Made by a program: the position numbers and the translations under genes
Assembly: GCA_021734325.1 (NCBI GenBank)
Contig: JAIPJF010000002.1
Coordinates: 62,001-126,000, forward strand
DNA from: Fidelibacterota bacterium
Lineage (GTDB): Bacteria > Fidelibacterota > UBA8477 > JABMPR01
Direction of reading: 5' to 3'
Length of the DNA: 64,000 bases
Part shown: positions 14,381 through 22,853 of the stretch, piece by piece
Layout of the letters: every line of letters begins with the position of its first letter
How positions within the stretch are numbered: position 1 is the stretch's first letter
Notes under the pieces: generated by a model
What the model was told of the DNA's origin: nothing
Seen by the model: the letters and a program-made list of their open reading frames with translations, nothing else
Database searches by the model: none

Positions 14381-14398
14381 AAATTACAGGGACAAAGG

Positions 14399-15988: not shown

Positions 15989-17050
15989 ATGTCCAGAATA
16001 ATTATTACCGGTGGGGCAGGATTCATAGGGAGTAATTTTATCCTCAAGCAGATAAGTGAAACGGATAATCATATTCTGAATCTGGATAAATTGACCTATG
16101 CAGGGAATCTGAATAATCTCAAATCTGTTGCTGATCATGAGAGGTACGGATTTGTCGAAGGTGATATTGCCGATTCTCAGTTGATCGATACAATCATTGA
16201 GGAATTCAAACCGGATGGTATTATCCATTTTGCGGCTGAAACCCATGTGGATCGCTCAATTGACGGCCCCATGCCATTCATTACGACGAATTTGCTTGGT
16301 ACAGCTGTCCTCTTAGACCGGATGACACAATATTGGCAAGGTCTGAAAGGGGAAAAGAAGGACAATTTCAGATTTCTCCATGTATCCACTGACGAAGTTT
16401 TTGGATCCCTTGGGTCTGATGAAAAATTTCAAATAGATACACCCTACGATCCAAGCTCACCCTACTCAGCATCCAAGGCAGGTGCAGACCATTTGGTTCG
16501 AGCCTGGGGCAGAACATTCGATACGCCCGTTCTCATTACGAATTGCACGAATAATTACGGGGCATACCAGTTTCCGGAAAAACTGATCCCCCTGATGATC
16601 ATCAACGCCATTTCAGGGAAATCTTTGCCCGTCTACGGAAGTGGTGAAAATGTCCGTGACTGGTTGCATGTTGAGGACCACTGCGATGCCATCTATACGG
16701 TATTTCGAAAGGGTAGAATAAAGGATACCTACCTTATTGGTGGTGAGGAAGAGGTCACCAACATCAGGGTGGTCGAAACCATTTGTAATATATTGGATGA
16801 GCTCAGACCCTCACTCTCGGGTGGGAGTTATCTAGATCAGATATCGTTTGTTGAGGATCGTCCAGGTCATGATCACCGATATGCAATGGATATCAGTAAA
16901 ATTCGTGGGGAATTGGAATGGACTCCGCGAAAGGATTTTAACTCCGGTTTAAGGCAAACCATTGAATGGTATCTGGAACATGAGTTATGGTGGAGGGACC
17001 TCCACGACAAGAAAATCTACGAGCAGGAAAGGTTGGGCAAAAAAGTATGA
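15989..17050 (+). CDS. rmlB: dTDP-glucose 4,6-dehydratase
   Basis: A 353-residue short-chain dehydrogenase/reductase of typical RmlB length. Visible are the NAD-binding [10 protein letters not shown] at the N-terminus, [15 protein letters not shown] (diagnostic for RmlB), STDEVFGSL with the catalytic Asp-Glu, and the YSASK active-site motif, followed by [17 protein letters not shown]. It converts dTDP-glucose to dTDP-4-keto-6-deoxyglucose. Its stop overlaps the rmlA start (ATGA), so the two are translationally coupled. It feeds RmlC downstream. Confidence 0.95.
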
Positions 17051-17838
17051 AAGGGATAATTCTAGCCGGAGGTTCCGGGACAAGGTTGCATCCCCTCACC
17101 AGGGTCGTTTCAAAGCAATTATTGCCAATCTATAACAAGCCAATGGTCTATTACCCACTTTCCACCTTGCTGCTGGCAGGGATCAAAGAAATTTTAATAA
17201 TCTCGACGCCGGAAGATCTCCCTCGTTTTGAGGACCTGCTTGGTGATGGTCGTCGATTTGGTGCCCAGTTCTCCTACGTTGCTCAGCCAAGTCCTGACGG
17301 TCTGGCACAGGCATTCATTCTGGGAGATGAATTTATTGGTACTGATGATGTGTGTCTGATCCTTGGTGATAATATCTTTTTTGGCCATGGTCTTATTGAT
17401 ATGCTTAAGGAAAGTTCAAGAATTGTGGCTCAGGAAAAAGACGCCGTTGTTTTCGCCTACCACGTTGAGGATCCACAACGTTATGGAGTGGTTGAATTTG
17501 AACCCTCTGGTAAAGTTCTATCCATTGAAGAAAAGCCGGATGCACCCAAGAGTCATTATGCCGTCGTTGGACTTTACTTTTACCCTAACTCCGTTGTGGA
17601 AGTGGCAAAAAAGATTAAACCCTCCGCCAGGGGCGAGCTGGAGATAACCAGCGTCAATCAGCATTACCTGAATGCAGGTACATTGCAGGTTCAAATCATG
17701 CAACGTGGATTTGCCTGGTTGGATACGGGGACCTTTGATTCCCTCCTTGAAGCTTCCCAATTTGTCCAGACACTTGAGCGACGACAGGGTTTGAAAATAG
17801 CTGATATTGAAGACTTAAGTTACAGGTCAAATGTCTAA
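17047..17838 (+). CDS. rmlA: Glucose-1-phosphate thymidylyltransferase, C-terminally short
   Basis: ATG 17047 overlaps the rmlB stop; the protein starts [18 protein letters not shown], the nucleotide-binding signature. Further motifs are [25 protein letters not shown] and the sugar-site EEKPDAPKS. It makes dTDP-glucose for RmlB. The product is only 263 residues, whereas most RmlA proteins have about 290. Homology runs to IEDLSYR, where relatives continue for roughly 30 more residues, but here the frame reads SNV and stops directly before the S23 gene. The missing tail is therefore at the exact junction with that gene. The catalytic core is complete, so activity is likely retained. Confidence 0.93.
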
Positions 17839-18204
17839 ATGTCAAAGGTGCTGAGATTTGAAGATCTGCGGATTTGGTCAAACACTAGATTGTTAGTCCG
17901 AGAAGTTTATTCGAAACTGGACTCAAGTGAAAATGGTTCGAAAGATTGGGGCTTTAGAAATCAAATTCAGACTGCAGCTATTTCTATTATGAATAATATT
18001 GCTGAAGGTTTTGAGAGATCCACCGATAAAGAATTTGCACGATTTCTTGATATTGCTAAGGCATCCTGTGGAGAAGTTAGAAGTATGTTATATCTTGCTG
18101 AAGATCTTGCATATATTGATTCAGGTACAGCCCAACAGATGCGAGAGAGTGCTGTAGATATATCAAAAGGTATCTCCACGCTTTCTAAACATTTACGGCA
18201 ATGA
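17839..18204 (+). CDS. Four-helix-bundle protein of the S23 (23S rRNA intervening sequence) family
   Basis: The 121-residue product has the family pattern: LRFEDLRIWSNTRLLVREVY, a DWGFRNQIQTAAISIMNNIAEGFER core, then EFARFLDIAKASCGEVRSML and a final helix. S23 proteins were first found in intervening sequences of 23S rRNA genes and form homopentameric four-helix bundles; their molecular function is not established. The ATG follows the rmlA stop without a gap, so it is coupled to rmlA. It interrupts the rmlA-rmlC order and stands where rmlA is truncated. It is only distantly similar to the other S23 protein (20585-20932), so the two are not a recent duplication. Confidence 0.9.
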   Translation: MSKVLRFEDLRIWSNTRLLVREVYSKLDSSENGSKDWGFRNQIQTAAISIMNNIAEGFERSTDKEFARFLDIAKASCGEVRSMLYLAEDLAYIDSGTAQQMRESAVDISKGISTLSKHLRQ

Positions 18205-18231
18205 GTGAGGAAATTTATATGATAGCATTCA

Positions 18232-18255
18232 ACTTTCTGACCTTCAGACTTTGGA
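18232..18255 (+). repeat. Three degenerate 8-nt repeat units after the first S23 gene
   Basis: ACTTTCTG (18232-18239), ACCTTCAG (18240-18247) and ACTTTGGA (18248-18255) are successive 8-nt units, the last close to a rotation of the TTTGGAAG unit found before the second S23 gene. They fill the short gap between the S23 gene and rmlC. Degenerate and short, so periodicity could be partly chance. Confidence 0.4.
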
Positions 18256-18262
18256 CTGTACA

Positions 18263-18817
18263 ATGAAATTCACTGTAACTCCGCAAAAAATATCAGAGGT
18301 ACTTCTCATCAAACCCACTGTTTATGGAGATGATAGGGGATATTTTAAGGAAAATTATCAGCAGTGCGATTTTGATGAATTCTTGCCCGGTGTAAGATTT
18401 ATACAGGACAACCAATCTTTATCCAAAAAGGGTGTGATCAGGGGACTTCACTTCCAAAAAGAACCTCATGGTCAGGCCAAACTGATCTGGGTTGTCAAAG
18501 GATCTATCTGGGATGTGGTTGTGGACATTAGACCGAACTCCCGTTCCTATAAGCAATATGTTTTCGCAGAGCTCACTGAAGCAAATCATCATCAACTTTT
18601 CATACCAAAAGGTTTTGCCCATGGCTTTATCGTCACCAGTGACGAAGCGATCGTACAGTATAAAACCGATGCTTTTTATAATCCGGAATCTGATGGAGGC
18701 ATCCATCCAAAGGATCCTGATTTAAATATTCCCTGGCCTCTCAACGACTCAGAACACCATCTTTCTGGTAAGGATCAGGCGCTCCCTTTCTTTGCTGACT
18801 TGAAACCCACACATTAA
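18263..18817 (+). CDS. rmlC: dTDP-4-dehydrorhamnose 3,5-epimerase
   Basis: The 184-residue cupin starts at ATG 18263; a TTG at 18251 is also in frame but lies in repeat-like sequence. Diagnostic RmlC motifs are VYGDDRGYFKENY, FIQDNQSLSKKGVIRGLHFQ with the catalytic His, KLIWVVKGSIWDVVVDIR and IPKGFAHGF. It epimerises the RmlB product. No rmlD (4-keto reductase) is in the window, so the final sugar (L-rhamnose or another 6-deoxy sugar) depends on a gene elsewhere or on another branch. Confidence 0.93.
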   Translation: MKFTVTPQKISEVLLIKPTVYGDDRGYFKENYQQCDFDEFLPGVRFIQDNQSLSKKGVIRGLHFQKEPHGQAKLIWVVKGSIWDVVVDIRPNSRSYKQYVFAELTEANHHQLFIPKGFAHGFIVTSDEAIVQYKTDAFYNPESDGGIHPKDPDLNIPWPLNDSEHHLSGKDQALPFFADLKPTH

Positions 18818-18843
18818 ATAAGACCATGCTGGAGGGTTAATTC

Positions 18844-19434
18844 TTGTCACACATCACCTATCATCCACAATCTATCTCCCTGGAAGAGAGAGAACACAAA
18901 AATGGTCACAGGGCAGCAGTTCTTTGGTTTACAGGGCTTTCAGGGTCAGGAAAATCAACAGTGGCCATGGCATTACAGGAAGAATTGTTCAAGAGAAACT
19001 GCCAGGTTTCCACACTTGATGGAGACAATGTGAGACAGGGTCTTAACGCCGGATTGGGTTTTACTGATGCTGACCGGGTCGAGAACTTGCGACGTGTTTC
19101 GGAGGTCTCGAAGCTATTTGCTGAATCTGGATTCATTGTGCTGACTTCCTTTATTTCCCCATTCAAAAATGAGCGGGAGCGGGCCAGGGAAATTATTGAG
19201 CCCCTGAATTTCTTTGAGATCTATGTGAACGTGGATCTGGCGACGGCAGAAGAACGCGATCCAAAGGGCTTGTACAAAAAAGCGAGAGCTGGTGAGATAA
19301 AAAACTTCACCGGTCTGGATTCCCCCTATGAAGCCCCTGAAAAGGCCGATCTTGTGATCTCGAATGCAGGTCAGAGCGTTCAAGAAGGTGTGGAACAGCT
19401 GATCAGTTTCCTGGAATCAAAAAAAATAATCTGA
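18844..19434 (+). CDS. cysC: Adenylylsulfate (APS) kinase
   Basis: The start is a TTG at 18844: GGAGGG at 18831-18836 is ideally spaced, and the upstream in-frame ATG at 18826 is cut by a stop. The 196-residue protein has an intact P-loop GLSGSGKS (31-38), the APS-site DGDNVRQGL, DRVENLRRV and the KGLYKKARAG lid. It phosphorylates APS to PAPS, the sulfate donor for sulfotransferases. A second kinase-like domain with a damaged P-loop is fused to CysN downstream, so this gene is probably the working kinase. It stands directly upstream of cysD. Confidence 0.95.
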   Translation: MSHITYHPQSISLEEREHKNGHRAAVLWFTGLSGSGKSTVAMALQEELFKRNCQVSTLDGDNVRQGLNAGLGFTDADRVENLRRVSEVSKLFAESGFIVLTSFISPFKNERERAREIIEPLNFFEIYVNVDLATAEERDPKGLYKKARAGEIKNFTGLDSPYEAPEKADLVISNAGQSVQEGVEQLISFLESKKII

Positions 19435-19466
19435 ATTTAGAACTTAACCCATCAGCAATCTCTTGT

Positions 19467-19493
19467 TTGATACGGGATTGATCAGGTTATAAT
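19467..19493 (+). promoter_or_regulatory. Candidate sigma-70-type promoter upstream of cysD
   Basis: TTGATA (19467-19472) and a perfect TATAAT (19488-19493) are separated by 15 nt, shorter than the preferred 17. They lie in the 110-nt gap between cysC and cysD, about 50 nt before the cysD start. If real, sulfate activation can be transcribed independently of the upstream sugar genes. Confidence 0.4.
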
Positions 19494-19544
19494 GCGTGAT
19501 GGATAGCACATTGTTAAATAAATAATCATTGATATTGGCACCCT

Positions 19545-20462
19545 ATGGAAACTATTGAATCATATAAATTAACCCATCTTGAAGAACTGGAAGCCGAGAG
19601 TATCCATATTATCCGCGAAGTTGCCGCTGAATTTGAAAACCCGGTGATGATGTACTCCATCGGCAAGGATTCTTCGGTTATGGTAAAGCTGGCGCAAAAG
19701 GCTTTCGCTCCAGGAAAAATTCCATTCCCACTATTGCATGTGGATTCAAACTGGAAGTTTCAGGAGATGATCAAATTTCGCGATACCTTTTGTGCTGAGA
19801 ACAAGATCGACCTGATTGTATACAAGAATGAGGAGGGTGTGAAAAGGGGGGTCGGACCCTTCACCCACGGCAGCAAAGTTCATACTGACATCATGAAGAC
19901 CCAGGCCTTGCTCCAGGCGCTTGATAAATACCACTTTGATGCCGCATTTGGCGGTGCCCGGAGAGATGAAGAAAAATCCCGCGCCAAAGAAAGGGTCTTC
20001 TCTTTCAGGGACCGTTTCCATCAATGGGATCCAAAGAATCAAAGACCGGAATTATGGAACCTGTATAATACTGAAGTCCATAAAGGGGAAAGCATTCGCG
20101 TCTTTCCCATCTCCAATTGGACTGAGCTGGATGTATGGCAATATATCAGGAAAGAAAAAATACCTATCGTTCCTCTCTATTTCGCAAAGGAGAGGGAAAT
20201 CGTAGATATGGATGGACAGTTCATCCTGGTTGATGATGAGCGTATGCCAGCTGAGATCGCAAAGCGTAAAGAAATGCGCACGGTTCGCTTTAGAACCCTG
20301 GGTTGCTATCCTCTCACAGGCGCTGTTGAATCAACAGCGGCGACCATTGAGGAGATCATCGAAGAAATGATGGTCGAGACAAAATCTGAGCGTACCACAC
20401 GGGTTATAGATTTTGATCAGGATGGTTCAATGGAGCAAAAAAAACGCGAGGGGTATTTTTAG
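19545..20462 (+). CDS. cysD: Sulfate adenylyltransferase subunit 2
   Basis: A 305-residue N-type ATP pyrophosphatase. Visible are the PP-loop-like [11 protein letters not shown] near residue 36-46, [31 protein letters not shown] and the C-terminal EQKKREGYF typical of CysD. With CysN it makes APS from ATP and sulfate. The stop codon TAG runs straight into an 8-nt tandem repeat and then the second S23 gene, which separate it from its partner cysN. No cysH, cysI or cysJ is present, so the pathway here points to PAPS for sulfation, not cysteine synthesis. Confidence 0.96.
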
Positions 20463-20550
20463 TTTGGAAGTTTGGAAGTTTGGAAGTTTGGGAGTTTGGG
20501 AGTTTGGGAGTTTGGAAGTTTGGGAGTTTGGGAGTTTGGGAGTTTGGGAG
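20463..20550 (+). repeat. Tandem array of eleven 8-nt units
   Basis: Eleven consecutive units of TTTGGAAG or TTTGGGAG (88 bp, only one variable position) start one base after the cysD stop codon and end 34 nt before the second S23 gene. Such a pure short tandem repeat is expected to vary in copy number by slippage. Its reverse complement CTTCCAAA recurs in degenerate form after the S23 gene, so the two flank that gene in opposite orientation. Confidence 0.95.
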
Positions 20551-20584
20551 TTGAAAAACTCGGAAGTTGGGGTGAGGTATACAG

Positions 20585-20932
20585 TTGGCAACTCATAAGG
20601 AATTGGACGTCTGGAAAGAAGCAATCGATCTTGTGACTAAAATATACAAGATGACAGCTGATTTTCCTGACAGAGAACAATTCGGACTTGTATCCCAGAT
20701 GACTCGCGCTGCTATTTCTGTACCAAGTAATATTGCTGAGGGTGCAGCAAGAGGCACAAGTAAGGAATATGTCCGTTTTCTAAACATTAGTTTAGCTTCA
20801 CTCTCAGAATTGGAAACTCAATTAATCATTTCACAAAATCTCGGGTATTCTGTGACCCTCGAGATATTTTCGGATGTAGAAAATATTCAAGCGAAATTAT
20901 ATAAACTTCGCAATTACTTAAACACGAAATAG
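20585..20932 (+). CDS. Second four-helix-bundle protein of the S23 family
   Basis: A TTG start at 20585 is preceded by GGTGAGG (20571-20577) at good spacing and gives MATHKELDVWKEAIDLVTKIY, the standard S23 start. The core QMTRAAISVPSNIAEGAARGTSKEYVRFL is highly typical of the family. The 115-residue product is all helical. Its function is unknown beyond the family's association with rRNA intervening sequences. It is inserted between cysD and cysN, which are normally adjacent, and is bordered by 8-nt-periodic repeats on both sides. It belongs to a different subgroup from the S23 protein at 17839-18204. Confidence 0.92.
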   Translation: MATHKELDVWKEAIDLVTKIYKMTADFPDREQFGLVSQMTRAAISVPSNIAEGAARGTSKEYVRFLNISLASLSELETQLIISQNLGYSVTLEIFSDVENIQAKLYKLRNYLNTK

Positions 20933-20945
20933 GCATATTTAATTT

Positions 20946-22853
20946 ATGGGCATTGAAAACCTCCAAACTTCCCAACCATCTAACCTCACAACTGCGAAAA
21001 TTGAAGATTTTCTGGCTCAGGATGAAAAAAAAGATCTTCTCAGACTGCTGACGGCAGGCTCAGTTGATGATGGAAAATCGACCCTGATCGGACGCTTGCT
21101 CCATGACTCCAAGCGACTCTATGATGATCAGCTTGAATCACTTAAGCGAGATTCCAAGCGAGTTGGCAATGCCGGAGAGGAGATCGACTATGCATTGTTG
21201 CTGGACGGATTGAAGGCCGAGAGAGAGCAGGGGATAACCATTGATGTCGCCTATCGGTATTTTGCCACCTCCAAGCGCAAGTTCATCATTGCTGACACAC
21301 CCGGCCATGAGCAATACACCAGAAATATGGTGACAGGGGCTTCTACCGCCCACCTGGCGATTGTACTCATCGATGCCCGCAAGGGGGTTATCACCCAGAC
21401 CAAGCGGCATTCCTTTCTCATTTCACTGCTGGGAATCAAGCATGTTATTATTGCTGTAAACAAGATGGATCTGGTAGATTATGACCAGGCAATATTTGAC
21501 AATATCTGTCAGACCTACATGGAATTTACTACCCGATTGAACATCCCTGACATGCGTTTTATACCCTTGTCTGCCCTGAAGGGGGACAACATTGTGGATG
21601 CAGGTCCGAACATGCCCTGGTATCATGGCCCCAGTATCATGCATCTTTTGGAAACCATTCCTGTGTCGGCGGATAGGAATTTTGTGGATTTCAGGTTCCC
21701 GATCCAGTATGTCTCAAGACCGGATCTTGATTTTAGAGGCTACGCCGGTCGCATTGCTTCAGGTATACTCCGCAAGGGAGAAGAGGTCGTAGCCCTGCCA
21801 ACAGGAAAAACAACACGAGTTGCCACCATTGAATCAATGGGCAAACAGGTTGATTATGCTTTCCCACCCGCGAGTGTCATGGTCACGCTTGAAGACGAAA
21901 TCGATATAAGTCGTGGCGATATGCTCGTGAGGAAAAACAATCAGCCTCATGTTGGTCGTCATTTCGAAGCCATGTTGGTCTGGATGGATGAAACACCAAT
22001 GGACCTGAACCAGCAGTTTATCATTAAACATACGACGCAAAAAGTGAAAGCTCGGCTCGATCTGGTCCGATATCAGATTGATGTCAATACAACCCATCGA
22101 TCAGAATCAGCCGTACTGAAATTGAATCAGATAGGTCGGGTAGTACTTACCGCTTCACGCCCGCTTCTCTTTGACAGTTATCGAAAAAACAGGCAAACGG
22201 GCAGTTTCATCCTGATTGATCCAATCACAAATAATACTTCAGCAGTGGGAATGATCGTTGATCGTATTGATGCAGAGAAACTCCCGTCTCGAATATCATC
22301 ACGTTCCGGGAAGGAATTGGGTCGAACTTTGATTTCCCGTGAAGAAAGGGAAAAGCAGATCGGTCAAACAGCGAAGACCTATTGGATCACCGGTCTGCAT
22401 GCTTCCGGGAAAAACGAGCTCGCCTATCGTCTTGAGCATACCTTGTTCGATCAAGGTAAAACGGTGGTCGTTTTGGATGGAAATGAGCTGAGGACAACGC
22501 TTAATCAAGAACTGGGATTCAATAAGGCTGATCGCGATGAAAATTTGCGCCGCGTGGCTGAAATTGCCAAATTATTGAATAATCAGGGACTGATCGTCAT
22601 TGCAGTATTTATTTCACCTGATAAAGCAACCCGGGAGCAGGTCAGAGAGATCATTGGTGCACAGCGATTCAAAGAAATATTTGTTGATACACCGCTGGAA
22701 GTCTGTAAGAGTCGGGATAAAAAAGGTCTGTACCAAAAGGCAGATGATGGATTGTTGGATCATTTCCCCGGTGTTGATTTTGAGTATGAATCAGGGACTG
22801 CAGATCTTGTCGTAGCCGATATTGAGACCATTGAAATAAGTGATCTGATATAG
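20946..22853 (+). CDS. cysNC: Bifunctional sulfate adenylyltransferase subunit 1 / APS-kinase-like protein
   Basis: The 635-residue protein starts with about 16 residues that look repeat-derived, followed by the CysN GTPase: P-loop GSVDDGKS (38-45), [12 protein letters not shown] (G3), NKMD (G4), and elongation-factor-like domains II and III to about residue 450. It drives APS synthesis with CysD. The C-terminal domain (about 478-635) is APS-kinase-like ([29 protein letters not shown]), but its Walker A is GLHASGKN (483-490) with Asn in place of the Ser/Thr that helps bind magnesium. A separate intact CysC is encoded upstream. The kinase domain may therefore be inactive or regulatory. Confidence 0.94.
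20960..20999 (-). repeat. Degenerate 8-nt units in inverse orientation within the cysN 5' end
   Basis: CCTCCAAA, CTTCCCAA, CCATCTAA, CCTCACAA and CTGCGAAA follow each other with 8-nt period from 20960. The first two differ by one base each from the reverse complement of the TTTGGAAG/TTTGGGAG unit. They encode residues about 6-18 of CysNC ([13 protein letters not shown]), an N-terminal extension that typical CysN proteins do not share. Units three to five are increasingly degenerate. Confidence 0.6.

Follow-up and report, generated by a model that had tools for sequence, protein, structure and literature searches.

S23 four-helix-bundle genes in the loops of repeat hairpins that appear to move between operon genes

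In Coxiella burnetii, the intervening sequence (IVS) of the 23S rRNA gene carries a 28-bp terminal inverted repeat and tandem GACAGAT heptamers ahead of an S23 open reading frame (ORF), is cleaved by RNase III in vitro, and has been regarded in older proposals as a transposition remnant or a mobile element (PMC4990558). Elsewhere, an S23 gene has been reported between the guanylate kinase and nicotinate-nucleotide adenylyltransferase genes (PMC5524665) and 18 intervening-sequence protein (IVP) genes in cas loci (PMC3936711), and the family is merely mentioned in two other papers (PMC8700078, PMC10910872). Heptamer repeats have been described separately: TAACTGA units in Beggiatoaceae (PMC4679880) and GGGNATC units in Xanthomonas and Nostoc, which tend to come in fours, form convergent inverted pairs (70 and 75 cases) and lie close to stop codons, in a paper whose main text lacks the terms S23, 23S and four helix (PMC4692102). 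No paper tying S23 genes to such arrays outside the rRNA IVS was found among the papers listed by our searches, which left most subscription literature out of reach. Here we analyse a stretch of 64,000 nucleotides from a Fidelibacterota bacterium (the window; contig JAIPJF010000002.1, positions 62,001 to 126,000, or G000:C35:62001-126000 in our numbering of genomes), in which two S23 genes stand between protein-coding genes. Our results suggest that S23 genes are probably the cargo of a family of mobile hairpins, with the S23 protein as array-binding partner in a REPIN/RAYT-like arrangement that has no recognised transposase. That these cassettes are mobile is well supported at the level of sequence comparison, by their architecture, by controls, and by filled and empty alleles in three unrelated groups.

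The sequence-only reading of this DNA had proposed that S23 genes split rmlA from rmlC and cysD from cysN, and this was confirmed: S23-a (17839..18204) and S23-b (20585..20932; both, like all window features given here, on the forward strand) score 102.6 and 118 bits against the PF05635 cut-off of 33.8 and also match TIGR02436, as members of the S23/23S_rRNA_IVP family. Both are flanked by protein genes rather than by a 23S rRNA gene, and four 23S rRNA motifs, sought as exact matches, occurred in no collected S23 locus. The two proteins are 28% identical and are accompanied by different repeat units, which rules out the duplication of one S23 gene and agrees with their having been read as divergent.

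S23-b lies between the CysD stop codon (20460-20462; cysD, 19545..20462) and the start of cysN/C (20946..22853), and its start codon is TTG, replaced by ATG in the relatives G014 and G018. Its left arm consists of 11.5 copies of an 8-nt unit (AGTTTGGG/AGTTTGGA; 20461..20552), with the highest Tandem Repeats Finder score (156) of the 21 rows in the window, and is the sole array of period 5-12 over threshold in a second window scan. The array begins within the CysD stop codon, and not at 20463 as first read. The right arm (20957..21002) is a degenerate reverse complement of the left, pairing with 20476-20521 at a flank score of 30, where the flank score is the best local complementarity between the 400-nt flanks of a gene. 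S23-a begins at the base directly after the RmlA stop codon (17838/17839; rmlA, 17047..17838) and is followed by rmlC (18263..18817). Its left arm (GTCAAAT/GTCTAAAT; 17821..17849) covers the end of rmlA and the first bases of S23-a, and pairs with a right arm at 18232..18260 with a score of 20, which alone is within chance (99th percentile of random positions, 26). Relatives of the S23-a subfamily support this pairing: three at the junction of a DegT gene and a Gfo gene (DegT-Gfo) in this gene cluster have GTCNAAA arms and reach 36-39, while the one at rmlA-rmlC in G018 likewise scores only 20.

Since the right repeats are degenerate reverse complements of the left ones, each S23 gene would sit in the loop of a hairpin, a structure clear from the sequence at cysD-cysN and weak, taken alone, at rmlA-rmlC. 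The S23 ORF fills this loop, leaving no second gene, such as a transposase, between the window's arms. Border repeats had been seen correctly, although they are the inverted arms of one hairpin and their unit differs by locus. The neighbours are altered at the junctions, as had been suggested: the left arm of cassette a encodes the RmlA end (YRSNV) and the right arm of cassette b the N-terminal residues of CysN. An S23-less hairpin of AGTTGGG/AGTTTGG-like units also lies elsewhere in the window's own genome (L137, G000:C2:163731).

The same junctions are found filled and empty in the window's genus, and different cassettes occupy a single junction. The cysD gene was located in 8 of 19 genomes, at 10 loci, five of which have an S23 gene at cysD-cysN: the window's S23 type with AGTTTGG arms in G000, G014 and G018, a second type with TAGTTGCTGG arms in G007:C42, and a third with GGAATGTG arms in G002. 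These types are 25-32% identical to each other (27-34 identical positions over 105-107 aligned). G003 and G004 lack such an insert, two G007 loci carry another insert, and in L102 (G015:C304) a run of Ns, an assembly gap, stands at the junction and may hide a cassette. Arrays of AGTTTGG are present in 7 of the 19 genomes, including all three with the window's S23 type (Fisher p 0.036). Of 17 loci at the DegT-Gfo junction (14381..14398 in the window), 7 have S23 cassettes, five have GIY-YIG genes (three identified by profile and two by eye, one of the latter incomplete) and four, including the window, have neither; the last runs off its contig. At rmlA-rmlC, ten loci comprise three with S23, one with a GIY-YIG gene (by profile), one with an S23-less hairpin of the same repeat and five with other or short spacers; an eleventh, interrupted by a contig end, is outside this count.

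The GIY-YIG genes at these two junctions (L112, L121, L122, L123, L125 and L128) match PF01541 in the four tested, L125 and L128 having been called by eye. Their inserts are mostly bounded by TTTCGAG..GAGAAAACCC and GGGATTTCTC..CTCGAAA, and form a second cassette type with inverted ends. In L101, L105 and L115 the inserts end in CGAG..GAGAAAACCC-like sequences; inspection by eye revealed no GIY-YIG gene in them, and they are perhaps decayed cassettes. In L109, several hundred nucleotides of AGAAGTTAGAAGTCA-type units, well over the usual length, separate rmlA from the S23 gene.

The complementarity of S23 flanks is general. PF05635 matches number eight in the window's genome and 79 in the genus, with at least one in all 19 genomes; 67 were assembled, 66 with usable flanks, and the 12 omitted are mostly partial or low-scoring. 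A second, named sample of 80 loci, kept from at least 574 relatives, was selected with the pattern S[IV][PMS][AS]NIAEG and hence represents one kind of S23; by record title it covers Bacteroidetes, proteobacteria, Planctomycetota, Chloroflexi, Methanophagales archaea, candidate phyla and others. Genus loci have a median flank score of 27.5, where mismatched pairs give 18 (n=1623) and random positions 19 (n=1500); named loci have a median of 30, where the corresponding controls give 18 (n=2369) and 19 (n=2000). The 99th percentile of random positions is reached by 42 of the 80 named loci and 40 of the 66 genus loci, and by 5.8% of the genus mismatched pairs, which still include same-site orthologues. 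Compared with other ORFs in the same loci, 44 of 80 named and 38 of 66 genus S23 genes exceed the 95th percentile (rank-test p 8e-19 and 1e-13, respectively). In both samples, the two flanks of one S23 gene thus tend to complement one another rather than the flanks of other loci. The GLDVFQRAILMAKYIY S23 subfamily, found in six genomes (L023, L025, L033, L034, L068, L073), has flanks below threshold and is perhaps domesticated.

The repeat unit varies between loci and is most commonly 7 nt long. The mean best lag-7 window is 13.6 in the named and 14.0 in the genus loci, against 9.5 at random positions, with an echo at lag 14, a smaller excess at lag 8 and other lags near random. Tandem 7-nt units thus characterise the general S23 set, as well as the cyanobacterial plasmids described below, so that the period-8 borders of the sequence-only reading hold for the window's array and for a minority elsewhere. 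The left arm has more G than C in 70 of 78 cases, more C than G in two, and equal amounts in six. Both neighbours lie on the same strand in 55 of 58 genus loci, 52 of 71 named loci and 189 of 257 control ORFs; as the named value is similar to the controls, an orientation preference is found in the window's genus only.

Across short distances the unit appears to stay with its S23 gene, while changing rapidly. Nearest S23 neighbours share units more than permuted ones do (p 0.001; 124 of 185 loci, 61 having been dropped for weak or short arms), in a test that ignores kinship and from which same-site pairs were removed by blastn only, so that deep orthologous sites may remain. In these 124 loci, unit similarity rises only above 55% S23 identity, the mean unit cosine being 0.21 for 52 pairs at 55-70% identity, 0.20 for two pairs above 70%, and 0.05-0.08 below.

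In the Rhodanobacter group, S23 lies between accB and accC in the named loci L185 and L220, with GGGATTC/GGGAATC arms. Across the 15 genomes of the L185 group, the accB-accC site contains an S23 cassette in three, a short linker in 11 (10 measured, at 5-18 nt, and that of G157 judged by eye), and an S23-less GGGACTC hairpin in one, G152, whose own S23 gene at carA-carB also has a GGGACTC arm. S23 is present in 5 of the 15 genomes. Matches to GGGAWTS arrays number 63, 15, 30 and 52 in the S23-positive G149, G152, G154 and G156, and six, at a single locus, in the S23-negative G155; there were none in the remaining 10 genomes, the S23-positive G164 included. Arrays at several loci were therefore found in 4 of 5 S23-positive and 0 of 10 S23-negative genomes (Fisher p 0.0037).

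Seventy array loci of G149, G152, G154 and G156 were fetched among the matches listed, and 36 pass a strict hairpin rule (16/24, 4/6, 7/11 and 9/29, respectively) and 40 a second rule. Each of these genomes has one S23 gene and 4-16 S23-less hairpins, which are dispersed and share common ends; their pooled consensus is GGAGCC-(GGGATTC)4-GGAAAAGC-loop-GCTTTTCC-(GAATCCC)4-GGCT, with four units in 52 of 80 arms. A gene end is adjoined by 38 of the 40 hairpins, compared with 825 of 2000 random positions (ORF rule), and the distance from stop codon to array is 4 or 5 nt in 20 of 52 measured. The S23 cassette of L185 has inner and outer ends and an inner motif of the same kind as this consensus, suggesting that S23 occupies the loop of one family member. 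The pattern of one S23 gene with dispersed hairpins sharing its flanks is seen in G149 and, by unit, also in G154 and G156; G152 differs in unit, and G153, G155 and G164 are exceptions.

Of the 25 plasmid records matched by an S23-b query, 23 carry cyanobacterial names. The 12 plasmid loci fetched have arm scores of 30-63 in seven and 16-22 in five, some of the latter with a clear left array only. At site A, near virB10, three plasmids carry the cassette (two of Trichormus, one of Scytonema), while six plasmids (H76-H81) match the site in two pieces without S23; the three empty alleles compared are 96-99% identical over 800 nt on each side. GTAAT is common to the left and right matches in 3 of 6 comparisons, which makes it a 5-nt duplication at a clean site; in the other three, a single-base mismatch close to the following start codon ends the exact right match. 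L406, a seventh plasmid, lacks S23 at this site and carries a similar array. At site E a TTCTA duplication is suggested by eye, at site B L408 has an S23-less array pair, and at site F the upstream gene is apparently shortened, its stop codon being supplied by the cassette. Sites A, E and F have S23 proteins with 79-84% identity and one common unit type. S23 cassettes also lie between cas6 and cas4 in type I-D CRISPR loci (L396 and L402, on Anabaena sp. 90 and Pseudanabaena plasmids), which may explain the IVP genes reported in cas loci.

S23-less alleles are consequently known at cysD-cysN, DegT-Gfo, rmlA-rmlC, accB-accC and six plasmid sites (A-F). Together with the enrichment of repeat arms beside S23 genes, they favour the suggestion of the sequence-only reading that S23 moves outside rRNA genes as a small unit carrying repeats, and neither stable fixation at the same sites nor a lack of repeat enrichment, the outcomes it had named as contrary, occurred. 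The suggestion also needs amending in that the enrichment lies mainly at lag 7 and less at lag 8, and that the hairpins also exist without S23.

The mobile cassette that we propose is a single hairpin of ~440-540 nt (in the cases measured). Its left side is a G-rich tandem array of 7-nt units (8-nt in the window), its loop contains the S23 ORF, and its right side is the array in reverse complement; it is found at gene junctions, often at the stop codon or a few bases past it. S23-less hairpins with the same ends would be non-autonomous or decayed members. We infer that S23 drives the movement: its homopentamer would bind its own array ring-wise, as RNA or single-stranded DNA, possibly with one unit per subunit, and would be needed in cis and in trans for spread, while strand cutting and copying would fall to enzymes of the host or of other origin. 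An S23 relative with five chains in its structure entry, 2gsc, is available. At the RNA level, the two arms would pair and RNase III would excise the cassette from the transcript, by analogy with the 23S rRNA IVS, in which case an insertion between operon genes could stay tolerable.

Several observations weigh against this proposal. Mobility is judged from sequence comparison, no movement having been observed directly. A Mantel test on 78 loci found unit and protein distances uncorrelated (r -0.02, p 0.71), and global co-variation of S23 sequence and repeat unit was accordingly rejected. Only 15 of 80 named and 14 of 66 genus S23 loci score above the 99th percentile for control ORFs. The folding of the whole-cassette RNAs is unexceptional (z -1.9 and -0.02), PF05635 was the sole Pfam match of the four S23 proteins scanned, which show no recognised catalytic domain, and the S23-b query gave no match among phage records at E 1e-3. 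Plasmid sites B, C, D and F have relatives without S23, yet no clean duplication. In the Rhodanobacter group, 30 of the 70 array loci fail the second hairpin rule, and the S23 arms of G152 (GGGACTC) differ from its six fetched arrays, which were chosen by pattern and are GGGATTC/G-type. The S23 arms of G164 are AGTGAGA, with AGTGAG arrays at one further locus of that genome; such arrays also occur at four loci in G153 and two in G155, in neither of which S23 was detected, and with both array kinds pooled the link with S23 is non-significant (p 0.089). The AGTGAG arrays of G153 and G155 speak against strict dependence on S23, and the idea that S23 is strictly required for arrays is unsupported for them.

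The strongest rival holds that S23 and its arms are passengers of a hairpin moved by a host or unrelated mobile enzyme, such as a reverse transcriptase (as with Avd), an IS200/IS605-like transposase or an integrase, S23 being accessory at most. The missing catalytic match and the arrays in genomes without detected S23 fit it, as does the stated homology of PF05635 with Avd (PMC10053308); S23-b matches the Avd model NF033474 weakly (E 0.0013, 19 bits, below the cut-off of 80), and S23-a is absent from the matches. Against it, the single S23 cassette of G149 has ends in common with the dispersed hairpins, and units are more alike where S23 proteins are more than 55% identical. We consider this rival unlikely, at about one chance in several. 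Less probable still is that the hairpins are selected regulatory RNAs that protect 3' ends or act as RNase III or attenuation sites and are bound by S23, ordinary recombination accounting for their rare spread, without meaningful mobility. It would suit the attachment of Rhodanobacter hairpins to gene ends and their preferred distance from stop codons, and the Xanthomonas and Nostoc arrays, which are mostly transcribed, near stop codons and generally without association with insertion sequences (PMC4692102). It sits poorly with the different S23 types and units at cysD-cysN, with one S23 subfamily at three plasmid sites that have S23-less alleles, and with the duplication at site A. Ordinary simple-sequence repeats near S23 genes by chance, a notion favoured by most AGTTTGG array places in the window's genus having no listed S23 match alongside, are hardly credible given that repeats beside S23 genes are enriched, inverted, polar with respect to strand and specific for lag 7, and were ruled out by the mismatched-pair, random-position and other-ORF controls.

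A broader reading, which we hold tentatively and at somewhat less than even chances, would make S23 proteins the trans-acting partners of heptamer-array mobile hairpins across bacteria and some archaea, a pentamer ring reading its cognate array without a transposase of its own; the 23S rRNA IVS, the short tandemly repeated repetitive (STRR) sequences of cyanobacteria and the GGGNATC repeats of Xanthomonas and Nostoc would be forms of this one system. Because the rRNA IVS is already an insert whose complementary ends enclose an S23 ORF, the basic arrangement is known, and the broad reading would amount to a new class. If it is true, a common protein family of unknown function, annotated as 'four helix bundle protein', would gain a role, repeat phenomena so far described separately would be united, a reason for S23 genes in cas operons (cas6-cas4) would be at hand, and there would be a mobile element with no recognised transposase, open to mechanistic tests.

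The STRR sequences of heterocystous cyanobacteria are tandem heptanucleotides, and similar-looking arrays bracket S23 genes on the cyanobacterial plasmids, although no S23-STRR link was found in the literature searched. The Rhodanobacter arrays resemble the GGGNATC repeats in unit class, four-unit preference, inverted pairs and stop-codon proximity, whereas the latter were interpreted as G-quadruplex repeats (PMC4692102). Avd, of the diversity-generating retroelements, is described as homologous to PF05635 (PMC10053308), but S23-b falls far below the Avd cut-off. As in the 23S rRNA IVS of Coxiella, an S23-family ORF lies in an insert with complementary ends (PMC4990558); unlike the IVS, the cassettes stand between protein genes, their arms are repeat arrays, and dispersed S23-less copies exist. 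Finally, in REPIN/RAYT systems dispersed hairpins of two inverted repeats accompany a single-copy partner gene located beside the same repeats (PMC3116915), a pattern matched in G149 but not in every S23-bearing genome of its group. In contrast to those systems, the partner is a four-helix-bundle protein rather than a tyrosine (HUH) transposase, and the arms are heptamer arrays, where those of REPINs are REP palindromes.

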